A stretch of DNA of 64,000 nucleotides from Hypericibacter terrae. Its GTDB lineage: Bacteria; Pseudomonadota; Alphaproteobacteria; Dongiales; Dongiaceae. Under the pieces are notes generated by a model. That model had not been told where the DNA came from, did no database searches, and saw only the letters and a program-made list of their open reading frames with translations. The position numbers and the translations under genes were made by a program. Below, piece by piece: positions 24,222-33,053 of the stretch. Position 1 is the first letter of the stretch. The number at the start of each line of letters is the position of its first letter. The stretch spans positions 2,542,001-2,606,000 of the forward strand of contig NZ_CP042906.1 of NCBI RefSeq assembly GCF_008728855.1, written 5' to 3'.

Positions 24222-24980
24222 TCAGTTCTCGCTGGATGCCACGCGAAAGCGGCGGGGATTGCCGTCGCCGCGCGTGCCGTGGGAAAGCGCGGCGACCCAG
24301 GGATAGCGCAGGGCTTCGTCCTCGGTATAGCCGAGATTGAAGACCGTCGCGCTCTTCTGCCGCTCGCGCGCGGCGCCGTAATAGGTGCCGAACAGCTTGT
24401 CCCAGGCATAGTTCGTGATGCCGTAATTGCCCTGCTCGTTATGGAAGTGGTGCTGGAGATGCAGCCGCTTGATGCGCTGCAGGAACTTCGATTTCGGCGC
24501 GAAGTTCAGATGCTGCACGCAGTGGCAGAACTCGTAGAAGATCGTGGTGACCAGGCCGGTGGCGAAAGCAGCGGCGGCGCCGGCGGGCCCCGCGATCAGG
24601 TAGCCGACCGGAAGCGTGATCGCGCCGATGGTGGGCAGCGTGGTGTAGAGCGCGCCGAACAGGACGCGCAGATTGTGCGGATCCTGGTGGTGGTCGAAAT
24701 GGATGCGCTTCCAGCCCGCCGCCGTGAAGCGGCTCTTGTAGAGGTAGCGCCCATGCAGCACGAAGCGGTGCAGCAGGTACCAGACCAGCGGATAGACCAG
24801 GATCGACACCGCCACCGCCGGGATCAGCGGCAGGGGCGATTCCATCCAGCGCCAGACCAGCCCGATGGAGACGATCGACAGCGCGATATAGGTGAGCACC
24901 GGCGGATAGGTGAAGAAGGCCCTCACCAGTTCCGGCAGCGTCATCCGGTCGAGATTATGGGTGCGATTCCAAAGGCTCAT
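24222..24980 (-). CDS. Membrane fatty-acid hydroxylase (sterol-desaturase superfamily)
   Basis: A 252-residue integral membrane di-iron enzyme with about four helices. The histidine clusters HRFVLHG, HFDHHQDPH, HCVQHLNF and HLQHHFHNEQGNYG fit the fatty-acid hydroxylase family. Related eukaryotic enzymes hydroxylate the sphingoid base or the amide-linked fatty acid of ceramide. Because it lies between lptG and the ceramide-synthase-like gene, it probably adds a hydroxyl group to ceramide. Which carbon is modified cannot be read from sequence. Confidence 0.85.
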   Translation of the reverse strand: MSLWNRTHNLDRMTLPELVRAFFTYPPVLTYIALSIVSIGLVWRWMESPLPLIPAVAVSILVYPLVWYLLHRFVLHGRYLYKSRFTAAGWKRIHFDHHQDPHNLRVLFGALYTTLPTIGAITLPVGYLIAGPAGAAAAFATGLVTTIFYEFCHCVQHLNFAPKSKFLQRIKRLHLQHHFHNEQGNYGITNYAWDKLFGTYYGAARERQKSATVFNLGYTEDEALRYPWVAALSHGTRGDGNPRRFRVASSEN

Positions 24981-25119: not shown

Positions 25120-26205
25120 TCAATATCCCTCGATTTTGATCAGGGCCGTGATGCCGATCGCGGCAAATAGGATCACGGAACTCCAGGCGGCCAGCAGCGG
25201 CGGCAGCATCCCCGACTCGCCCAGCGATTGGAGGATGCCGTCGGCGATGAAATAGAGGAAACCCATCCCGACCCCGACCATGAAGCCCAACCCGGCGCCA
25301 CTCTGCCGGCGCAGCGACTGCGCCACGGGGGCCGCCAGCAGCAGCATGATCAGCGTCATGATCGGCAAGGCGAGGCGCTTGTTGAACCAGGTCTCGTAAT
25401 AATAGACCGGCCGGCTGCCGACATTCTCGTTGGCGGCGAAGTTGTGCAGCTCGCGCAGGCTCAGGCTCGCGGGCGTCGCCGCCAGGTCGGAGAAATGCTG
25501 CGGGCTGAGATTGGTCTGCCACCGCCACTGGTCCTGCCGGACGATCTCGGTCGCCCCGCTGCCGCCGATCACGGTGCGCTCGACCTGAAAGAGGTCCCAG
25601 CCGCCATCGCGGAACTCGGCGCGGCCGGCGACGATGCGCTCCTGGAACTGGCTGGCGGAATCGCGCTCGAAGATGGTGATGCCGCTCAGGCTCCGGCCGC
25701 GATCCAGCACCACCACAACCCGCACCAGCGTGTAGCCGTCGCGCGCCCAGACGGCGCTGGGCGTGTCCTTGTCGTTGTCGGCGCTGAAGTCGACCGCCTC
25801 CGCGTTCCAATCCTCCATCGCGCGCGCTGCGACCGGCGCGATCTGGTCGGCGACCAGGAAATGCAGGCCGGCGATCAGGAATGCGGCGGGGAGGAAGCAG
25901 GCGAGGATGCGCCAATAGGAAAGGCCGGCCGCCTTCATCGCCATGACCTCGGCCGACTGCGCCAGGCGCGACAGCACCAGGAGGGCCGCGATCAGCACGG
26001 AGAAGGGGAACAGGAAGGCCGCCAGATCGGGCAGCCGCAGCCAGACATAATGCAGGATGCTGCCCAGGCTGAGGCCATGGCGCGCGAACAGCTTGCTGGT
26101 GTTGTTCAGCAGATCGAGCAGCTGCAGCAGGGCCGTGAACCCGAACAGCATCAGCGCGAACTGCATCAGCAACATGCGCGACACATAGCCGACGAGCGTG
26201 CGCAT
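25120..26205 (-). CDS. lptG: LptG-like permease (YjgP/YjgQ family)
   Basis: A 361-residue LptF/LptG-family inner-membrane protein: three N-terminal helices (about 10-120), a periplasmic beta-jellyroll domain (about 125-265) and three C-terminal helices (about 270-360). In the canonical system LptB2FG extracts lipopolysaccharide and delivers it to LptC. Its ATG overlaps the lptF stop by one base, so both are co-translated. The pair lies inside the ceramide cluster, not beside lptD or surA as is common in related bacteria, so it could serve sphingolipid export instead. No ATPase or LptC gene is adjacent. Confidence 0.88.
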   Translation of the reverse strand: MRTLVGYVSRMLLMQFALMLFGFTALLQLLDLLNNTSKLFARHGLSLGSILHYVWLRLPDLAAFLFPFSVLIAALLVLSRLAQSAEVMAMKAAGLSYWRILACFLPAAFLIAGLHFLVADQIAPVAARAMEDWNAEAVDFSADNDKDTPSAVWARDGYTLVRVVVVLDRGRSLSGITIFERDSASQFQERIVAGRAEFRDGGWDLFQVERTVIGGSGATEIVRQDQWRWQTNLSPQHFSDLAATPASLSLRELHNFAANENVGSRPVYYYETWFNKRLALPIMTLIMLLLAAPVAQSLRRQSGAGLGFMVGVGMGFLYFIADGILQSLGESGMLPPLLAAWSSVILFAAIGITALIKIEGY

Positions 26206-27398
26206 CAGGCCGGCGCCTTTCTGCGGCGACCGATCTGCCGAACGTTGTCGAACAGGCTCTCGATCCGGGCGAGAACGGTTTCGACGAAGTTATGGCCCGG
26301 CGACACGTTCGCTTCCCAGAACGCCCAGCTGCTGAACCCGGCATAGACGAAGAAGGGGAGCCAGAGGCTGATCCAGGGCGATAGTCGGCCGTTGGCGGAG
26401 ACGTCGTGCCCGAACTGCAGCAGGTAATAGAAGATCACGATCAGCACGATGCCGACCGCGATGCCGGTTCCTCGTCGCGTTCGTCGGGTCGAGGAGCCGA
26501 GCGGGAAGGCCAACAGCGGCAGGAAGAGATAGGTGGCGATCCGCACCAGCCGTTCATGCAGCTCGGCATGGACCGCGTAATACATCGGGTCGGTCTTGGG
26601 CAGGGTCCAGACATTGTGCCAAAGTTCCGGCAGCGTCTGCTCGCGCTCGGAGGCGCCTCTTATTCGATAGGGTTCCGGCGCCAGCGCGATGTCGAGCGGC
26701 AGCTCGAACCGGGCGAAGGTCAGGGCGTTGATCTTCTTGTTGGGCCCGTCGGTATCGATGCGGGCGCCCTGTTCCAGCTTCAGCACCAGCTGGTCGTCGG
26801 TCTGGGAGCGGACCACATAGCCGGTCTGGGCGGTGGTCGTGACCGAACCGCCCGTGCTCTTGTCCTGATAGACGAAGATGCCGGTCAGCCGTCGCCCGCC
26901 CTCGGAGATATCGTCGACCAGGATGGTCGAATTGCCGAAGCCGCTGAAGAAGGCGCCCTTCTCCAGGGCCGAGTACCAGGCGGTCTCGGTGACGAGATAG
27001 ATGAGGGCGCGATAGCCGTAGCGCGTATAGGGCTGGAGAAATCCGACGATGATGGTGCCGAAGATGACGAGCAGGACCGCGAACATCATCAAAGGCGCGA
27101 TCATGCGATGGAGCGGCACGCCGCTCGCATGCATCGCGTCGAGCTCGCTCTCGCTGCTGAGGCGGGAAACCGCCAGAAGCACGCCGATGAAGAAGGCCGC
27201 CGGCAAGGCGATCCCCAGATAATGCGGAATCAGATTGGCCAGCATGCGCAGGATCAGCGACAGCGGACCGCCCTTGTTCACCACCAGATCCAGCAACCGG
27301 ACCGTCTGTTCCATCAGCAAGGCGACCAGCGCGATGGAGACCGTGGCGATCAGGGGCCACAGGGTCTTTGCCAGGATGTAACGGTCGAGCAATTTCAT
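26205..27398 (-). CDS. lptF: LptF-like permease (YjgP/YjgQ family)
   Basis: A 397-residue partner of the LptG-like protein with the same plan: helices at about 10-120, a periplasmic domain (about 130-285) and three C-terminal helices. The N-terminus MKLLDRYILAKTLWP and the segment ESELDAMHASGVPLHRM (coupling helix, about 90-106) are typical. The start at 27398 is chosen because it opens directly on this family N-terminus; the frame runs 36 codons further to 27506 without conserved sequence. A 345-base gap separates it from the metallophosphoesterase gene, so lptF-lptG-hydroxylase-ceramide synthase may form their own transcript. Confidence 0.87.
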   Translation of the reverse strand: MKLLDRYILAKTLWPLIATVSIALVALLMEQTVRLLDLVVNKGGPLSLILRMLANLIPHYLGIALPAAFFIGVLLAVSRLSSESELDAMHASGVPLHRMIAPLMMFAVLLVIFGTIIVGFLQPYTRYGYRALIYLVTETAWYSALEKGAFFSGFGNSTILVDDISEGGRRLTGIFVYQDKSTGGSVTTTAQTGYVVRSQTDDQLVLKLEQGARIDTDGPNKKINALTFARFELPLDIALAPEPYRIRGASEREQTLPELWHNVWTLPKTDPMYYAVHAELHERLVRIATYLFLPLLAFPLGSSTRRTRRGTGIAVGIVLIVIFYYLLQFGHDVSANGRLSPWISLWLPFFVYAGFSSWAFWEANVSPGHNFVETVLARIESLFDNVRQIGRRRKAPA

Positions 27399-27743: not shown

Positions 27744-28649
27744 TCAGGAAAGCTGGCCGGCCAGGCGGAAACGGCCCGTGATCTCCAGGCCGGCGCCCTT
27801 CTGCGGCAACGCCCGGGTCTCGATCTCGATGTCCCATCCCGAACCCGCGCGCGTCACGCGATAGAGGTGATAGCCGCCGGCGGGCTTGCCGCCGTGAGGC
27901 ATCGCCGAGGCGGAGGGCACGCCCAGCACCGGGATGCGTCCCTGCGGGCCGGCGAGGTGATCCAGGTGGGCGCGATGGGTATGGCCATGCAGAACCAGCT
28001 CGGCGCCCTTCTGCGCCAGCAGGCCGCGAAACGCCGCCGCGTCGATCAGCGCCTTCCGGTCGTGGGTCGCCCGGGCCTGCGGGGGATGATGGATCAGCAC
28101 CACGCGAAACAGCCCCTCGGCCTCGAGCGCCGGCAGCATCGCCGCCAGCCGGGCCAGCTGCTCGGGGCCGAGATGGCCGGCCGCGCTGTTATAGGGCATG
28201 GGCTCCGCGGAGGAGAGGCCGATCAGGGCGAGGGGGCCGCGCCGGCGCAAATAAGGAAACCGCTCCGCCTCCCCGGTTTGAACGTCGCCCGTCATGTAGG
28301 CGTCCCAGAGCGCCAGATGCTTCGACCAGGGCAGTTCGACATAACGGTCATGATTGCCGGGAATGACGCTGACGCGGTCCGGCGGGCCGATCCGCTGCAG
28401 CCAGGCGGCGGCATTCTCGAATTCCCGCGGCAGGGAGATGTTGGTGATGTCGCCGGTGACGGCGACATGATCGGCGCGGCTCTGCGCCAGATCGGCGACG
28501 ACGCGATCGAGCACCGCCCGGCGGTGAATGAAGCGCCGGCGCAACTGCCAGGACAGAAACCCGAGGACGCGCTTGGAGAGCAGCGCGCCCGGCGCCGGCA
28601 TCGGCCACTCGGAAAGATGCGGATCGGACAGATGCGCCAGGGTGAACAT
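27744..28649 (-). CDS. Metallophosphoesterase
   Basis: A 301-residue calcineurin-type phosphoesterase. All metal motifs are present: D-x-H (Asp9, His11), GDITN, GNHD, the single His in LIHHPP, and GHTHRAH. There is no signal peptide, so it is probably cytoplasmic. It resembles the cAMP phosphodiesterase/UDP-diacylglucosamine hydrolase-like branch only in general. It lies 60 bases downstream of serine palmitoyltransferase and may hydrolyse a phospholipid or nucleotide-linked head group in sphingolipid metabolism; that is inference. AAGGGG precedes the ATG. Confidence 0.82.
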   Translation of the reverse strand: MFTLAHLSDPHLSEWPMPAPGALLSKRVLGFLSWQLRRRFIHRRAVLDRVVADLAQSRADHVAVTGDITNISLPREFENAAAWLQRIGPPDRVSVIPGNHDRYVELPWSKHLALWDAYMTGDVQTGEAERFPYLRRRGPLALIGLSSAEPMPYNSAAGHLGPEQLARLAAMLPALEAEGLFRVVLIHHPPQARATHDRKALIDAAAFRGLLAQKGAELVLHGHTHRAHLDHLAGPQGRIPVLGVPSASAMPHGGKPAGGYHLYRVTRAGSGWDIEIETRALPQKGAGLEITGRFRLAGQLS

Positions 28650-28709: not shown

Positions 28710-29927
28710 TCAGCCGGCGGCGCGCAGATCGGCCGCGCCGATGACGCCGAATTCGCGGCCGATCGCGGCCGTGACCGCGACCACCTTGTCGAGCTGGGCC
28801 CGCGTGTGCGCGGCGCAGACGCTGCAGCGCAGGAGCGCGGTACCTTGCGGCGTCGCCGGCGGCAGCGCCAGATTCACATAGATGCCCCGATCGAGCAGCG
28901 CGCGCCAGAAACCGACCGCGAGGTCGGGGCTCGGCAGCTTGATCGCCACCACCGGCCCCATCTGGGGCCCGAGCGAGAAGCCATGCCGCGCGAAGCCGTT
29001 ATAAAGCGTGGCGACATTTTCCCAGAGCTGCGTGCGCAGCTCCGGCCGCTTGCGGATCTGCCGCAGCGCCTCGGTCGCCGACGCGACCACGGAAGGCGGC
29101 AGCGAGGCGGTGAACATGTAGGGGCGGCAGACGATGCGCAGCAGATCGAACTGCGGATGATCCGACACGCAGAAGCCGCCGACCGCGCCGAGGCTCTTGC
29201 TGAAGGTGCCGACGATGAAATCCATGTCGGCCTCGACGCCCTGTTCCTCAGCGAGCCCGCGGCCCGTCGCGCCCAGCACGCCCATCGAGTGGGCCTCGTC
29301 GAGCACCATCCAGGCGCCATGCTTGCGCTTGACCTCGGCCATCTCCTTGAGCGGGGCCTGGTCGCCCAGCATGCTGTAGATGCCTTCGGTGACGACCACC
29401 TTGTTGCCGGGTTCGTCGGCCAGGCGCCGCAGCCGCTTGTCGAGATCCTCGGCGTCGTTGTGCTTGAAGCGCACGACCGTGGCCGTGCCCAGGCGGCAGG
29501 CGTCGTAGATCGAGGCGTGGCTGTCGGCATCGATCAGCAGGAAGTCTTGCGGGCCGGCCAGGGTCGAGATGATGCCCAGATTGGCCTGGTAGCCGGTGGT
29601 GAACACCATGCAATGCCGGCGGCCGTAGAAATCGGCCAACTCGGTCTCGAGGTCGCGATGGGGCGCGTAGGAGCCGTTGGCGATCCGCGAGCCGGTCGTG
29701 CCGGTGCCGTAAGCGTCCAGCGCCTTGTGGGCGGCCTCGACGCAAGCCGGATCGAAGGTCAGGCCGAGATAATTGTTGGTGCCGACCAGGATGGTGGGGC
29801 GATTGCCGATGACGGCTTCGGTCGCCGAAAGCATCCGGTCCATGCGGACGCCGAACGGATCGTCGACCCGGGCTTTGACGTCGGTGTGCGCTTGCTCAAT
29901 GCTGGCGAAACGATCGAATAGACCCAT
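28710..29927 (-). CDS. spt: Serine palmitoyltransferase
   Basis: A 405-residue PLP enzyme of the alpha-oxoamine synthase family, soluble and homodimeric in bacteria. It condenses serine with a long-chain acyl thioester to give 3-ketosphinganine, the first step of sphingolipid synthesis. Expected residues are present: His137 stacking on PLP, Asp210 and His213, and the PLP lysine Lys244 in GTFSKSLGAVGG. The N-terminal DPFGVRMDRMLSATEAVI and GTNNYLGL segments favour serine palmitoyltransferase over 5-aminolevulinate synthase or KBL. An ACP gene lies 24 bases upstream, suggesting that acyl-ACP is the donor. GGAGA precedes the ATG. Confidence 0.92.
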   Translation of the reverse strand: MGLFDRFASIEQAHTDVKARVDDPFGVRMDRMLSATEAVIGNRPTILVGTNNYLGLTFDPACVEAAHKALDAYGTGTTGSRIANGSYAPHRDLETELADFYGRRHCMVFTTGYQANLGIISTLAGPQDFLLIDADSHASIYDACRLGTATVVRFKHNDAEDLDKRLRRLADEPGNKVVVTEGIYSMLGDQAPLKEMAEVKRKHGAWMVLDEAHSMGVLGATGRGLAEEQGVEADMDFIVGTFSKSLGAVGGFCVSDHPQFDLLRIVCRPYMFTASLPPSVVASATEALRQIRKRPELRTQLWENVATLYNGFARHGFSLGPQMGPVVAIKLPSPDLAVGFWRALLDRGIYVNLALPPATPQGTALLRCSVCAAHTRAQLDKVVAVTAAIGREFGVIGAADLRAAG

Positions 29928-29951: not shown

Positions 29952-30200
29952 TTAACGACGACGGATGGCCTCGGCGAGGTCGCCGACGGTCCGGATCTCC
30001 GCCACCAGATTGAGCGGGATCGTCACGTCGAACTTCTCCTCCAGCTCCATCATGAGGTCCATGACAGCGAGGGAATCGAGCTTCAAGTCCTGGGAGATGT
30101 CGGTCTCCCGGTTAATGACATTGTCCGCCTTACGGAACGGCTCCAACAGGTTAACCACCTGTTCGAACACCGCCACGTCTTCGCGTTCCATCAAGCCCAT
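29952..30200 (-). CDS. Acyl carrier protein of the ceramide cluster
   Basis: An 82-residue acyl carrier protein. The phosphopantetheine site is Ser43 in LDSLAVMDLMMELEEKF. It is acidic and helical and of normal ACP length. It sits directly before serine palmitoyltransferase, and downstream of an acyl-AMP ligase that could load it. It is therefore probably a dedicated carrier that feeds acyl chains into sphingolipid synthesis instead of the housekeeping ACP. An internal ATG at 30191 is an alternative start. Confidence 0.9.
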   Translation of the reverse strand: MGLMEREDVAVFEQVVNLLEPFRKADNVINRETDISQDLKLDSLAVMDLMMELEEKFDVTIPLNLVAEIRTVGDLAEAIRRR

Positions 30201-30342: not shown

Positions 30343-31293
30343 TTACAGCCAGCCTTCCTGCCGGTACCAGCGCACGGTCTCCGCGAAGCCCGGACCAATG
30401 GCCCATTGCGGTTGCCACTCCGTTCCTGCGTCCGCCGGCGGCCCGTGATGGCACAGCCAGTCCGCATGCAACACCTCAGGCAGCTTATGGGGCACCAGCA
30501 TCTGGGGCTTTCCGGTCCAAGCGGCCTTCAGCGCGTTGCCTCTGGCCATGACGGTCAGGAAGGCCTTCGGGATGGTCAGGGCTCTTGCATGCGTTCCCAG
30601 GGCGCGGGCGGCAGCGGCTGTGAGGTCGTTCCAGCTGTGCCCTTCGGTCGCACCGTCGTCCAGCTCCCAGGTCTGGCCTCGTGCCACCGCCGAGCCGGCG
30701 GACGCTGCGGCAAATCGACCGAGATCCTCCACATGGATCAAAGATAGGCGTCGGATCGCCCCGGGCGGTCGCGGCGCGATACCCCGCTTCACTGTCTTGA
30801 AGAAGGGGAGGAACTCCCGATCGCCGGGTCCATAGACCGCGGTTGGCCGGAGAATGGTCCAGGGCATGGGCCCGGCCACGGCCTTGAGCAAGTCCTCCGC
30901 GGCGCGCTTGCTGGCGCAATAGGGCGACAGTGCCGGCTCGCGGGCGGCGAGCGACGACATCAGGACGAAATGGGGCGGTGTGGGTTGCCGCGCGGCGATC
31001 CCGGCGAGGCGGCCGGTCGGTTCGGCATTGCCGCGCATGAAGCCCTCGCGGTCATGCGCTTTCACCACGCCCGCGATATGCAGCACCGCATCGGCCCCGG
31101 TCACCAGCTGGTTCAGCGCAATATTGTCCGCGAGATCGCCGATGACGACTTCCGGTGTCTGGTTCGGCAGGATCAGGCGCGGCGGCTGGCGGCGGATCAG
31201 CAGGCGCAAGCGCCAGCCCCTCCGGTCCAGCTCGGAAACCACGGCGCCGCCGACAAAGCCGCTGGCCCCGGTGACGGCGGCAAGCCGGCCCAT
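30343..31293 (-). CDS. cerR: NAD(P)-dependent epimerase-fold reductase, probable 3-ketosphinganine/ceramide reductase
   Basis: A 316-residue extended short-chain dehydrogenase. The nucleotide motif TGASGFVGG is at 8-16, and the active-site Tyr125/Lys129 are in SPYCASKRA. General annotation would be NAD-dependent epimerase, but its place between an acyl-AMP ligase and ACP-serine palmitoyltransferase matches CerR, the ceramide reductase of Caulobacter. It would reduce the 3-keto group. The start at 31293 lies 11 bases after the ligase stop; the frame remains open upstream inside that gene, which is coincidental. A 142-base gap separates it from the ACP gene. Confidence 0.8.
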   Translation of the reverse strand: MGRLAAVTGASGFVGGAVVSELDRRGWRLRLLIRRQPPRLILPNQTPEVVIGDLADNIALNQLVTGADAVLHIAGVVKAHDREGFMRGNAEPTGRLAGIAARQPTPPHFVLMSSLAAREPALSPYCASKRAAEDLLKAVAGPMPWTILRPTAVYGPGDREFLPFFKTVKRGIAPRPPGAIRRLSLIHVEDLGRFAAASAGSAVARGQTWELDDGATEGHSWNDLTAAAARALGTHARALTIPKAFLTVMARGNALKAAWTGKPQMLVPHKLPEVLHADWLCHHGPPADAGTEWQPQWAIGPGFAETVRWYRQEGWL

Positions 31294-31304: not shown

Positions 31305-33053
31305 TCAGCGGGACGGAGCGGCGTCGGCACCGCCCTCCTGGAAATGGCCGGCGAGATAGGCGGCCTTGGCGCGTGCCCGCGCGATCTTGCCCGACGAGGT
31401 GTGGGGGATGTCGCGCGGTCCGACCAGCGCGATCCGGGCCTCGATACCATGGGCCCGCTGCAGCAGGCTCTGCGCGCCCTGCCGCAGGGTTTCGCGCTCG
31501 GCGGCGTCGGTCTGACGCGAGACCACCAGCATCACCACCTGCTCCTGGCCCTCGGGTCCCTCGATCGAGAAGGCGCAGGCATCGTTGCGCTTGAGATCGA
31601 GGCTCTCCTCGACGCTCCATTCCAGATCCTGCGGCCAGATGTTCCGGCCGGCGATGATGATGAGATCCTTGGCGCGGCCGGTGATGACCAGCGCGCCGTC
31701 GAGGCTGTAGCCGAGATCGCCGGTATCGAGCCAGCCATCGGCGGAGAGCACGCGTGCCGTTTCCTCGGGCTGGCCGTAATAGCCGGCCATCAGGCTGGGG
31801 CCCTTGACGAAGAGACGGCCGATCATGCGGTCGGGCAGGACTTCGCCGTCCTCGCCGCGAATCTCGGCGACATGGCCCGTCAGAGGCCGGCCGCAGAGCA
31901 CGAAGCGCCGGCTGTCATCGGAGCGCGGATCGGCCGGAACGGCACGGCCTTCCTCGGCCAGGCGGCCGCGATCGACCGCGTCGGTCAGCATGCCCTGATT
32001 GCGCGGCGAGAAGCTGATTGCCAGCACGGCCTCGGCCATGCCGTAGCTCGGCAGGAAGGCCTTGGGATCGAAGCGGCAGCTGGCGAAGGCGGCGCCGAAG
32101 CGTTCCAGCACATGCGGCTGGATCATGTCGCCGCCGATGCCGGCAATGCGCCAGCAGGAGAGATCGAGATCGGGCGTCGCGAGCCGGCCTTCGCTGACGC
32201 GCCGGCTGCAGAGATCGTAGCCGAAGGTGGGGCTGTAGGAGAGCGTGGCGCGGTTCTGCGAGATCAGGGTCGGCCACATCAGCGGGCGGCGGGCGAAGTC
32301 GCGCGTCGCCAGATAGTCCACAGTCACCTGCGACAGCAGCGGGGACAGCATGAAGCCGACCAGCCCCATATCGTGATAGAGCGGCAGCCAGGAGACAGCC
32401 CGATCGCCCGGAACGAGGCCGAGCCCGTCGATCGCGATCGCATGGGCGTTCGCCATCAGCGCGCGTTGCGGCACGTCGATGCCCTTGGGAAAGCGCGTGC
32501 TGCCGGACGAAAACTGGAGGTAGCAGGATTCGTCGGCTGCGAACGGGCGGAGCTCGGCGCCGTCGTCCGGCAAGGCCAGGAACTCGGCGGCGCTGCCGAC
32601 GACCGTGGCGCTGGTGCCGGCTGCGGCTTCCTTCAGATAGTCGAGCAGCTCCGCCGGCGCCATGGCCGCCGCCGCGCCGCAGCTTTGAATCTGCCGGCGC
32701 AAGGTCGCGATATAGCTGTCGCGCCCGCCCAGGCCTGTCGGCAGGGCGACCGGCACCGGCAGGAGCCCGGCATATTGGCAGGCGGCGAACAGCACCATGA
32801 AGTCGGGCACCGTGTCGGCGATCAGCACCATGCGAGCGCCGCGTGCCAGGCCCGACCGGATCAGGCCGCGGGCGGCGGCGATCGCGCGTTCGCGCAGCTC
32901 GCGATAGGGCAGGACCGCGGTCAACTCGCCGCGTGCCGAATAGAAGTTGAAACCGGTGTCGCCACGGGCCGCATAGTCCAGGCCTTCGGTGAAGGTGCCG
33001 AACGGACCGGGATGGAATGGCAGATCGCGGCTGATGCTGGGGGTGGGATGCAT
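31305..33053 (-). CDS. Fatty acyl-AMP ligase / acyl-ACP synthetase
   Basis: A 582-residue adenylate-forming enzyme of the FAAL type. The ATP motif YLQFSSGSTRFPKG is at 178-191 (the SGSTR variant is typical of FAALs), PSYGMAEAVLAIS and WLDTGDLGY follow, and the C-terminal catalytic Lys is in HTSSGKIARAR. It would activate a fatty acid as acyl-AMP and load it on the nearby ACP, giving the substrate of serine palmitoyltransferase. The start at 33053 gives family length; an in-frame start at 33287 would overlap the divergent gene's start and adds 78 Pro/Arg-rich residues of no known domain. First gene of the cluster. Confidence 0.87.
   Translation of the reverse strand: MHPTPSISRDLPFHPGPFGTFTEGLDYAARGDTGFNFYSARGELTAVLPYRELRERAIAAARGLIRSGLARGARMVLIADTVPDFMVLFAACQYAGLLPVPVALPTGLGGRDSYIATLRRQIQSCGAAAAMAPAELLDYLKEAAAGTSATVVGSAAEFLALPDDGAELRPFAADESCYLQFSSGSTRFPKGIDVPQRALMANAHAIAIDGLGLVPGDRAVSWLPLYHDMGLVGFMLSPLLSQVTVDYLATRDFARRPLMWPTLISQNRATLSYSPTFGYDLCSRRVSEGRLATPDLDLSCWRIAGIGGDMIQPHVLERFGAAFASCRFDPKAFLPSYGMAEAVLAISFSPRNQGMLTDAVDRGRLAEEGRAVPADPRSDDSRRFVLCGRPLTGHVAEIRGEDGEVLPDRMIGRLFVKGPSLMAGYYGQPEETARVLSADGWLDTGDLGYSLDGALVITGRAKDLIIIAGRNIWPQDLEWSVEESLDLKRNDACAFSIEGPEGQEQVVMLVVSRQTDAAERETLRQGAQSLLQRAHGIEARIALVGPRDIPHTSSGKIARARAKAAYLAGHFQEGGADAAPSR

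Follow-up and report, generated by a model that had tools for sequence, protein, structure and literature searches.

The route by which bacterial sphingolipids reach the outer membrane was described as unknown in two papers of 2024 (PMC11324152, PMC11087976), and according to the latter, in J Biol Chem, neither a flippase nor a lipid transporter had been identified. In the literature that we searched, no experiment on sphingolipid transport by the Lpt system was found. The question arises for a stretch of 64,000 nucleotides of the Hypericibacter terrae genome (hereafter called the window), in which genes for two permeases of the LptF/LptG family lie among genes for sphingolipid synthesis. A previous sequence-only reading of the window proposed that, should the genome also code for a canonical pair, the one in the window would likely serve sphingolipid in particular, and suggested a search for a second lptFG and a phylogenetic tree. 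What, then, is exported by the permeases of the window?

The permease genes and their neighbourhood

The sequence-only reading had placed an LptF/LptG pair at 25120-27398 and reported that the two genes overlap by one base. Both ORFs are complete there, on the minus strand, and the junction between them (CTGATGCGC) has the motif TGATG, one base of which is common to both. The products, which we call LptF2 and LptG2 (Table 1), are covered over their full length by PF03739 in Pfam profile searches, and both exceed the NCBIfam equivalog cut-offs (230 bits for LptF, 240 bits for LptG); their assignment is thus not due to chance. Profile comparisons also matched solved LptG and LptF chains over the full length, with E values of 1e-58 and 1e-41, respectively, and on these grounds the predicted LptF/LptG fold can be regarded as settled. 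As such a pair passes the NCBI cut-offs, it would be annotated as an LPS exporter despite its location in a sphingolipid cluster.

Table 1. Sphingolipid cluster of the window, in order of transcription
Product	Position in the window	Strand	Evidence
Fatty acyl-AMP ligase (AasR-like)	31305..33053	-	NF006624, 799 bits (cut-off 600)
CerR-like NAD-dependent epimerase/reductase	30343..31293	-	PF01370, E 9.1e-19; conserved in SPT clusters
Acyl carrier protein (ACP), likely dedicated to sphingolipid	29952..30200	-	PF00550, E 4.1e-12; adjoins SPT in relatives
Serine palmitoyltransferase (SPT)	28710..29927	-	NF047599, 679.5 bits (cut-off 500)
Metallophosphoesterase (Mpho)	27744..28649	-	PF00149, E 1.8e-12; beside LptF2 in most of 80 relatives
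LptF2, SPT-linked LptF-type permease, 397 aa	26205..27398	-	PF03739, E 4.6e-73; TIGR04407, 241 bits (cut-off 230); SPT-linked clade in tree
LptG2, SPT-linked LptG-type permease, 361 aa	25120..26205	-	PF03739, E 2.3e-74; TIGR04408, 278 bits (cut-off 240); SPT-linked clade in tree
Fatty acid hydroxylase	24222..24980	-	PF04116, E 6.1e-21
Putative ceramide synthase (CerS-like N-acyltransferase), 392 aa	23032..24210	-	Position and conservation beside LptFG2 and hydroxylase in relatives

The order of transcription is AasR-like ligase, CerR-like reductase, ACP, SPT, metallophosphoesterase, a gap of 345 bp, LptF2, LptG2, hydroxylase and CerS-like protein. The pair thus lies between the SPT gene and the hydroxylase and ceramide synthase genes, as had been read from the sequence, with the metallophosphoesterase gene and the gap as further elements between SPT and lptF. 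The CerS-like protein has no match in Pfam or NCBIfam and owes its putative identity to its position and conservation. A promoter scan yielded a single weak match, a number not above that in shuffled sequences.

Two other clusters, those of genomes G037 (from the same family as H. terrae) and G093, encode a DAGK-type kinase, CDP-alcohol transferases and nucleotidyltransferases, a set that resembles the Caulobacter genes for ceramide-phosphoglycerate. All of these are absent from the window. A ceramide kinase of the G037 type was not found in the H. terrae genome, a weak negative that comes from one protein query without a positive control. Even without kinase and transferase genes in its cluster, the window has the metallophosphoesterase gene. 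The presence of this gene here and its usual position directly before LptF2 in relatives suggest a step tied to export or to headgroup chemistry.

A canonical pair in the same genome

The closed genome of H. terrae (5.89 Mb; G000 in our sample) was searched as a whole. It contains four LptF/LptG genes, namely, the pair of the window and a second pair at C1 1.715-1.717 Mb. The latter is part of a pepA-lptF-lptG-lptD-surA locus (C1:1.711-1.719 Mb), which agrees with the earlier observation that the window pair is not next to lptD, surA or pepA. The presence of a canonical pair beside lptD rules out that the window pair is the sole lptFG of the genome. The canonical LptG is encoded at L006:8684-9784, and the canonical pair has lower scores to PF03739 than the sphingolipid-cluster pair.

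One gene each was detected for LptB, LptC, LptA, LptD and LpxC. Extra copies of LptC, LptA, LptB or LptD that might serve the second pair were looked for in the genome, and none was detected. For LptC, there is a single gene with PF06835, and a weak second match falls in LptA; a divergent LptC2 could escape the Pfam profile. Since LptB, LptC, LptA and LptD are each found once, the window pair, if it is an Lpt extractor, most likely has LptB and the periplasmic bridge in common with the LPS system.

Two separate types of LptF/LptG pairs

Trees were built for LptF (43 rows) and LptG (41 rows), including the E. coli proteins and the SPT-linked pairs of 14 genomes. SPT-linked and canonical pairs are split with supports of 100/99 in the LptF tree and 100/100 in the LptG tree, and in both trees all 14 SPT-linked pairs fall on one side and every canonical pair on the other. 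As judged from these trees, the two types are old and separate. The window pair groups with the SPT-linked pairs, apart from the canonical LPS exporters. The outcome that the sequence-only reading regarded as contrary to its proposal, a sole lptFG that groups with LPS exporters, thus differs on both counts from what was found.

Scanning of bacterial genomes with an LptF2 alignment gave 80 nearest relatives that span many alphaproteobacterial orders. Other sphingolipid genes are present in the fetched flanks of 67 of them, where the metallophosphoesterase gene usually immediately precedes LptF2. In the flanks fetched for all 80 relatives, lptD, pepA, surA or a canonical pair was not found once. 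The remaining 13 relatives are mostly on short contigs; they include four loci (L182, L185, L197 and L201) of ~21 kb each without recognised sphingolipid biosynthesis genes.

Retention of the pairs in genomes with and without LpxC

We searched one sample of 142 genomes of the class for LptF/LptG, SPT, LpxC and LptD, with LpxC, the only lipid A gene included, standing in for lipid A synthesis. SPT of this type is encoded in 17 genomes. Seven of these have LpxC (G000, G026, G027, G079, G095, G123 and G124); all seven harbour a canonical pair, and six also have the SPT-linked type, the exception being G079. The other 10 (G012, G037, G039, G058, G066, G071, G076, G080, G093 and G131) are devoid of LpxC, G131 being scored as such on the basis of its absence from the list of all 118 LpxC-positive genomes. 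No canonical pair is present in any of these 10, eight have the SPT-linked pair and nine have LptD.

In six of the eight LpxC-less genomes that keep the SPT-linked pair (G012, G037, G039, G058, G093 and G131), pepA directly adjoins lptD. It is also beside lptD in G071, and the spacing is within a few hundred bp in all seven genomes. Searches by tblastn with canonical LptF and LptG proteins revealed no lptFG remnant in these seven junctions; the intact H. terrae locus, used as a positive control, gave 100 hits. Thus, lptD has been kept, the canonical lptFG lost and the lptFG of the sphingolipid cluster kept. The difference between SPT genomes with and without LpxC has a Fisher p value of 5e-5, computed on genomes that are related to each other. 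The LpxC state changes about four times on the SPT tree, so that the losses are few independent events. Three supported contrasts all agree (sign test, p 0.25), and with three contrasts only, this test cannot reach significance.

Outside the SPT genomes, canonical-type pairs were found in all 55 genomes whose pairs were classified; the SPT-linked type was seen, among the classified pairs of the sample, only in genomes with SPT. Seven genomes have at least four LptFG genes; six of them carry SPT, and the seventh is G022 (see below). For G027 and G095, the pair and the SPT gene were located on different contigs.

The natural experiment offered by the LpxC-less SPT genomes is the strongest evidence for a role in sphingolipid export. 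The proposal of the sequence-only reading is supported by this retention as well as by the canonical pair and by the trees, and we estimate at roughly 80% the probability that LptF2/LptG2 represents a permease dedicated to sphingolipid. That LpxC and the canonical lptFG are missing together, with the sphingolipid-cluster pair and lptD kept, provides a specific, testable answer to the question of sphingolipid delivery and a genetic prediction for laboratory strains.

Another interpretation is that a different or broader range of anionic lipids is exported (a glycerolipid, a glycolipid, or LPS together with sphingolipid) and that the sphingolipid cluster is only co-regulated with the pair. The failure to find a G037-type ceramide kinase in H. 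terrae would be compatible with this, if weakly, as would the report that LptB2FG of P. aeruginosa can also bind cardiolipin (PMC12738788). Against this stand the linkage of such pairs to SPT genes over several alphaproteobacterial orders and their occurrence, within the sample, in SPT genomes only; we regard this interpretation as unlikely.

Genomes that depart from the pattern

Three SPT genomes have no SPT-linked pair. G079 (loci L071 and L109) has an SPT cluster and LpxC with the canonical pair only; its sphingolipid may share the canonical exporter or use another route, and such a route may therefore suffice. The single-contig genome G066 has a full SPT cluster, and no LpxC, LptC, LptD, LptF or LptG was found in it, which indicates that a genome may have an SPT cluster and no Lpt. 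A gene for an MFS_3 transporter follows the CerS gene in G066 (L068, C1:1500000-1519900). G071, whose assembly is 82% complete, has SPT and LptD, and no LptFG was found. Finally, some genomes with neither LpxC nor SPT (G059, G062 and G134) retain the canonical pair, which thus does not always follow LpxC.

Conserved residues

The positions aligned with E84 of E. coli LptF and E88 of E. coli LptG, which we take to be the coupling-helix glutamates, are occupied by glutamate in all 94 SPT-linked proteins, including those of the window. This invariance is in line with the use of an LptB-type ATPase. The glutamates, the family and the two-gene order are common to the window pair and to canonical LptB2FG, as represented by E. 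coli lptF/lptG and by the H. terrae pair at 1.715 Mb. In contrast, the window pair differs from canonical LptB2FG by its separate clade and its neighbourhood, and its SPT-linked type by retention without LpxC and by the absence, in most members, of a pair of basic residues at positions 40/41 of LptG.

In the Shigella structure, LptF R33 contacts an LPS phosphate, and LptG K40 and K41 contact the 4'-phosphate and the inner core of LPS, respectively (PMC6744409). R33 is an arginine in 93 of the 94 SPT-linked LptF proteins. LptG positions 40 and 41 are both basic in 21/26 canonical alphaproteobacterial LptG proteins vs 3/94 SPT-linked ones. The corresponding residues are S37/K38 in LptG2 of the window and T/E in the canonical LptG of the same genome, so the trait fails to separate the two pairs of H. 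terrae. Absence of the basic pair would fit a different headgroup, but it is only suggestive because the canonical LptG of H. terrae does not have it either. We also considered the charge of the cavity as a substrate signature (LptG region 30-45, median -2 in SPT-linked and +1 in canonical proteins); as both H. terrae pairs are exceptions, we do not rely on it.

A further view, on which these residues also bear, is that LPS has a second, redundant exporter in the window pair, retained for dosage or to handle a variant LPS, and that the location of this exporter in a sphingolipid cluster is incidental. The near-invariance of LptF R33 could be read in its favour, as could the scores above both equivalog cut-offs. 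However, eight LpxC-less SPT genomes keep the SPT-linked pair without a canonical one, the type is confined to the SPT genomes of the sample and the frequencies of basic residues at LptG 40/41 point the other way, which makes this view quite improbable. That the pair is kept for some structural or regulatory reason without transporting lipids, as the three SPT genomes devoid of it might suggest, is very hard to reconcile with the preserved coupling glutamates, the full-length similarity to solved LptF/LptG and the retention of both genes together across long evolutionary distances.

Proposed pathway and comparison with Caulobacter

In a dedicated sphingolipid pathway, LptF2/LptG2 would extract sphingolipid out of the inner membrane and pass it into the shared Lpt bridge, and the canonical pair beside lptD would do the same for LPS. 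We infer the substrate, the direction and the sharing of LptB, LptC, LptA and LptD.

A related proposal exists for Caulobacter crescentus. Olea-Ozuna et al. (2024) named CC_1168, CC_1156 and CC_1155 LptC2, LptF2 and LptG2 and proposed, without going beyond a proposal, that they carry phosphosphingolipids to the outer membrane (PMC11324152). As in the window, the second lptF/lptG pair of C. crescentus (CC_1156/CC_1155) lies amid ceramide genes (CC_1165-CC_1162 and CC_1154), and the window pair is placed among aasR, cerR, acp, spt and cerS-type genes in the manner of the Caulobacter layout (PMC11324152). By this comparison of gene layout, the window pair fits the LptF2/LptG2 proposal. In contrast, the Caulobacter region holds the proposed LptC2 (CC_1168) and genes for a flippase and a ceramide kinase, whereas no second LptC was detected for the window pair and no kinase is encoded in its cluster. 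The idea of dedicated export has thus already been published for Caulobacter; the comparative evidence and the G022 pair described below go further. They add the separation of clades over many families, the restriction to SPT genomes within the sample, the replacement of one pair type by the other in genomes without LpxC, and a seemingly independent recruitment in G022.

A divergent pair in another putative lipid cluster

G022 is the only non-SPT genome of the sample with four LptFG copies. Its extra LptF/LptG pair (L257:8728-10997) is very divergent, with 82 and 76 bits to PF03739, and belongs to a cluster at L257:4024-14369 (C2 ~495-505 kb). On one side of the pair are genes for a BioF/SPT-like synthase, an inositol-3-phosphate synthase, an SDR reductase and a CTP transferase; on the other side are those for a glycosyltransferase, a sugar kinase and a PI-phosphate-synthase-like protein. 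The BioF/SPT-like synthase scores below every curated cut-off, and its product is uncertain. Judging from its gene content, the cluster resembles one that makes an inositol-containing (sphingo)lipid; the extra pair is possibly its exporter and would represent a second, independent-looking recruitment of an LptFG module.

We lean slightly towards a more general scheme, in which the Lpt bridge would be a general conveyor of outer-leaflet lipids, with interchangeable LptFG modules that determine what it carries. Alphaproteobacteria would add a sphingolipid-specific LptF2/LptG2 to the LPS module or put it in the place of that module; in several lineages, LPS would have given way to sphingolipid through the loss of LpxC and, among the Lpt components tested, of nothing but the canonical lptFG; and G022 would have a separate divergent module in its inositol-lipid-like cluster. 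The G022 and window loci are alike in that a second LptFG pair is clustered with a BioF/SPT-like synthase and an SDR reductase. They are unlike in the strong divergence of the G022 pair and in its inositol-3-phosphate synthase, CTP transferase and PI-phosphate-synthase-like neighbours.
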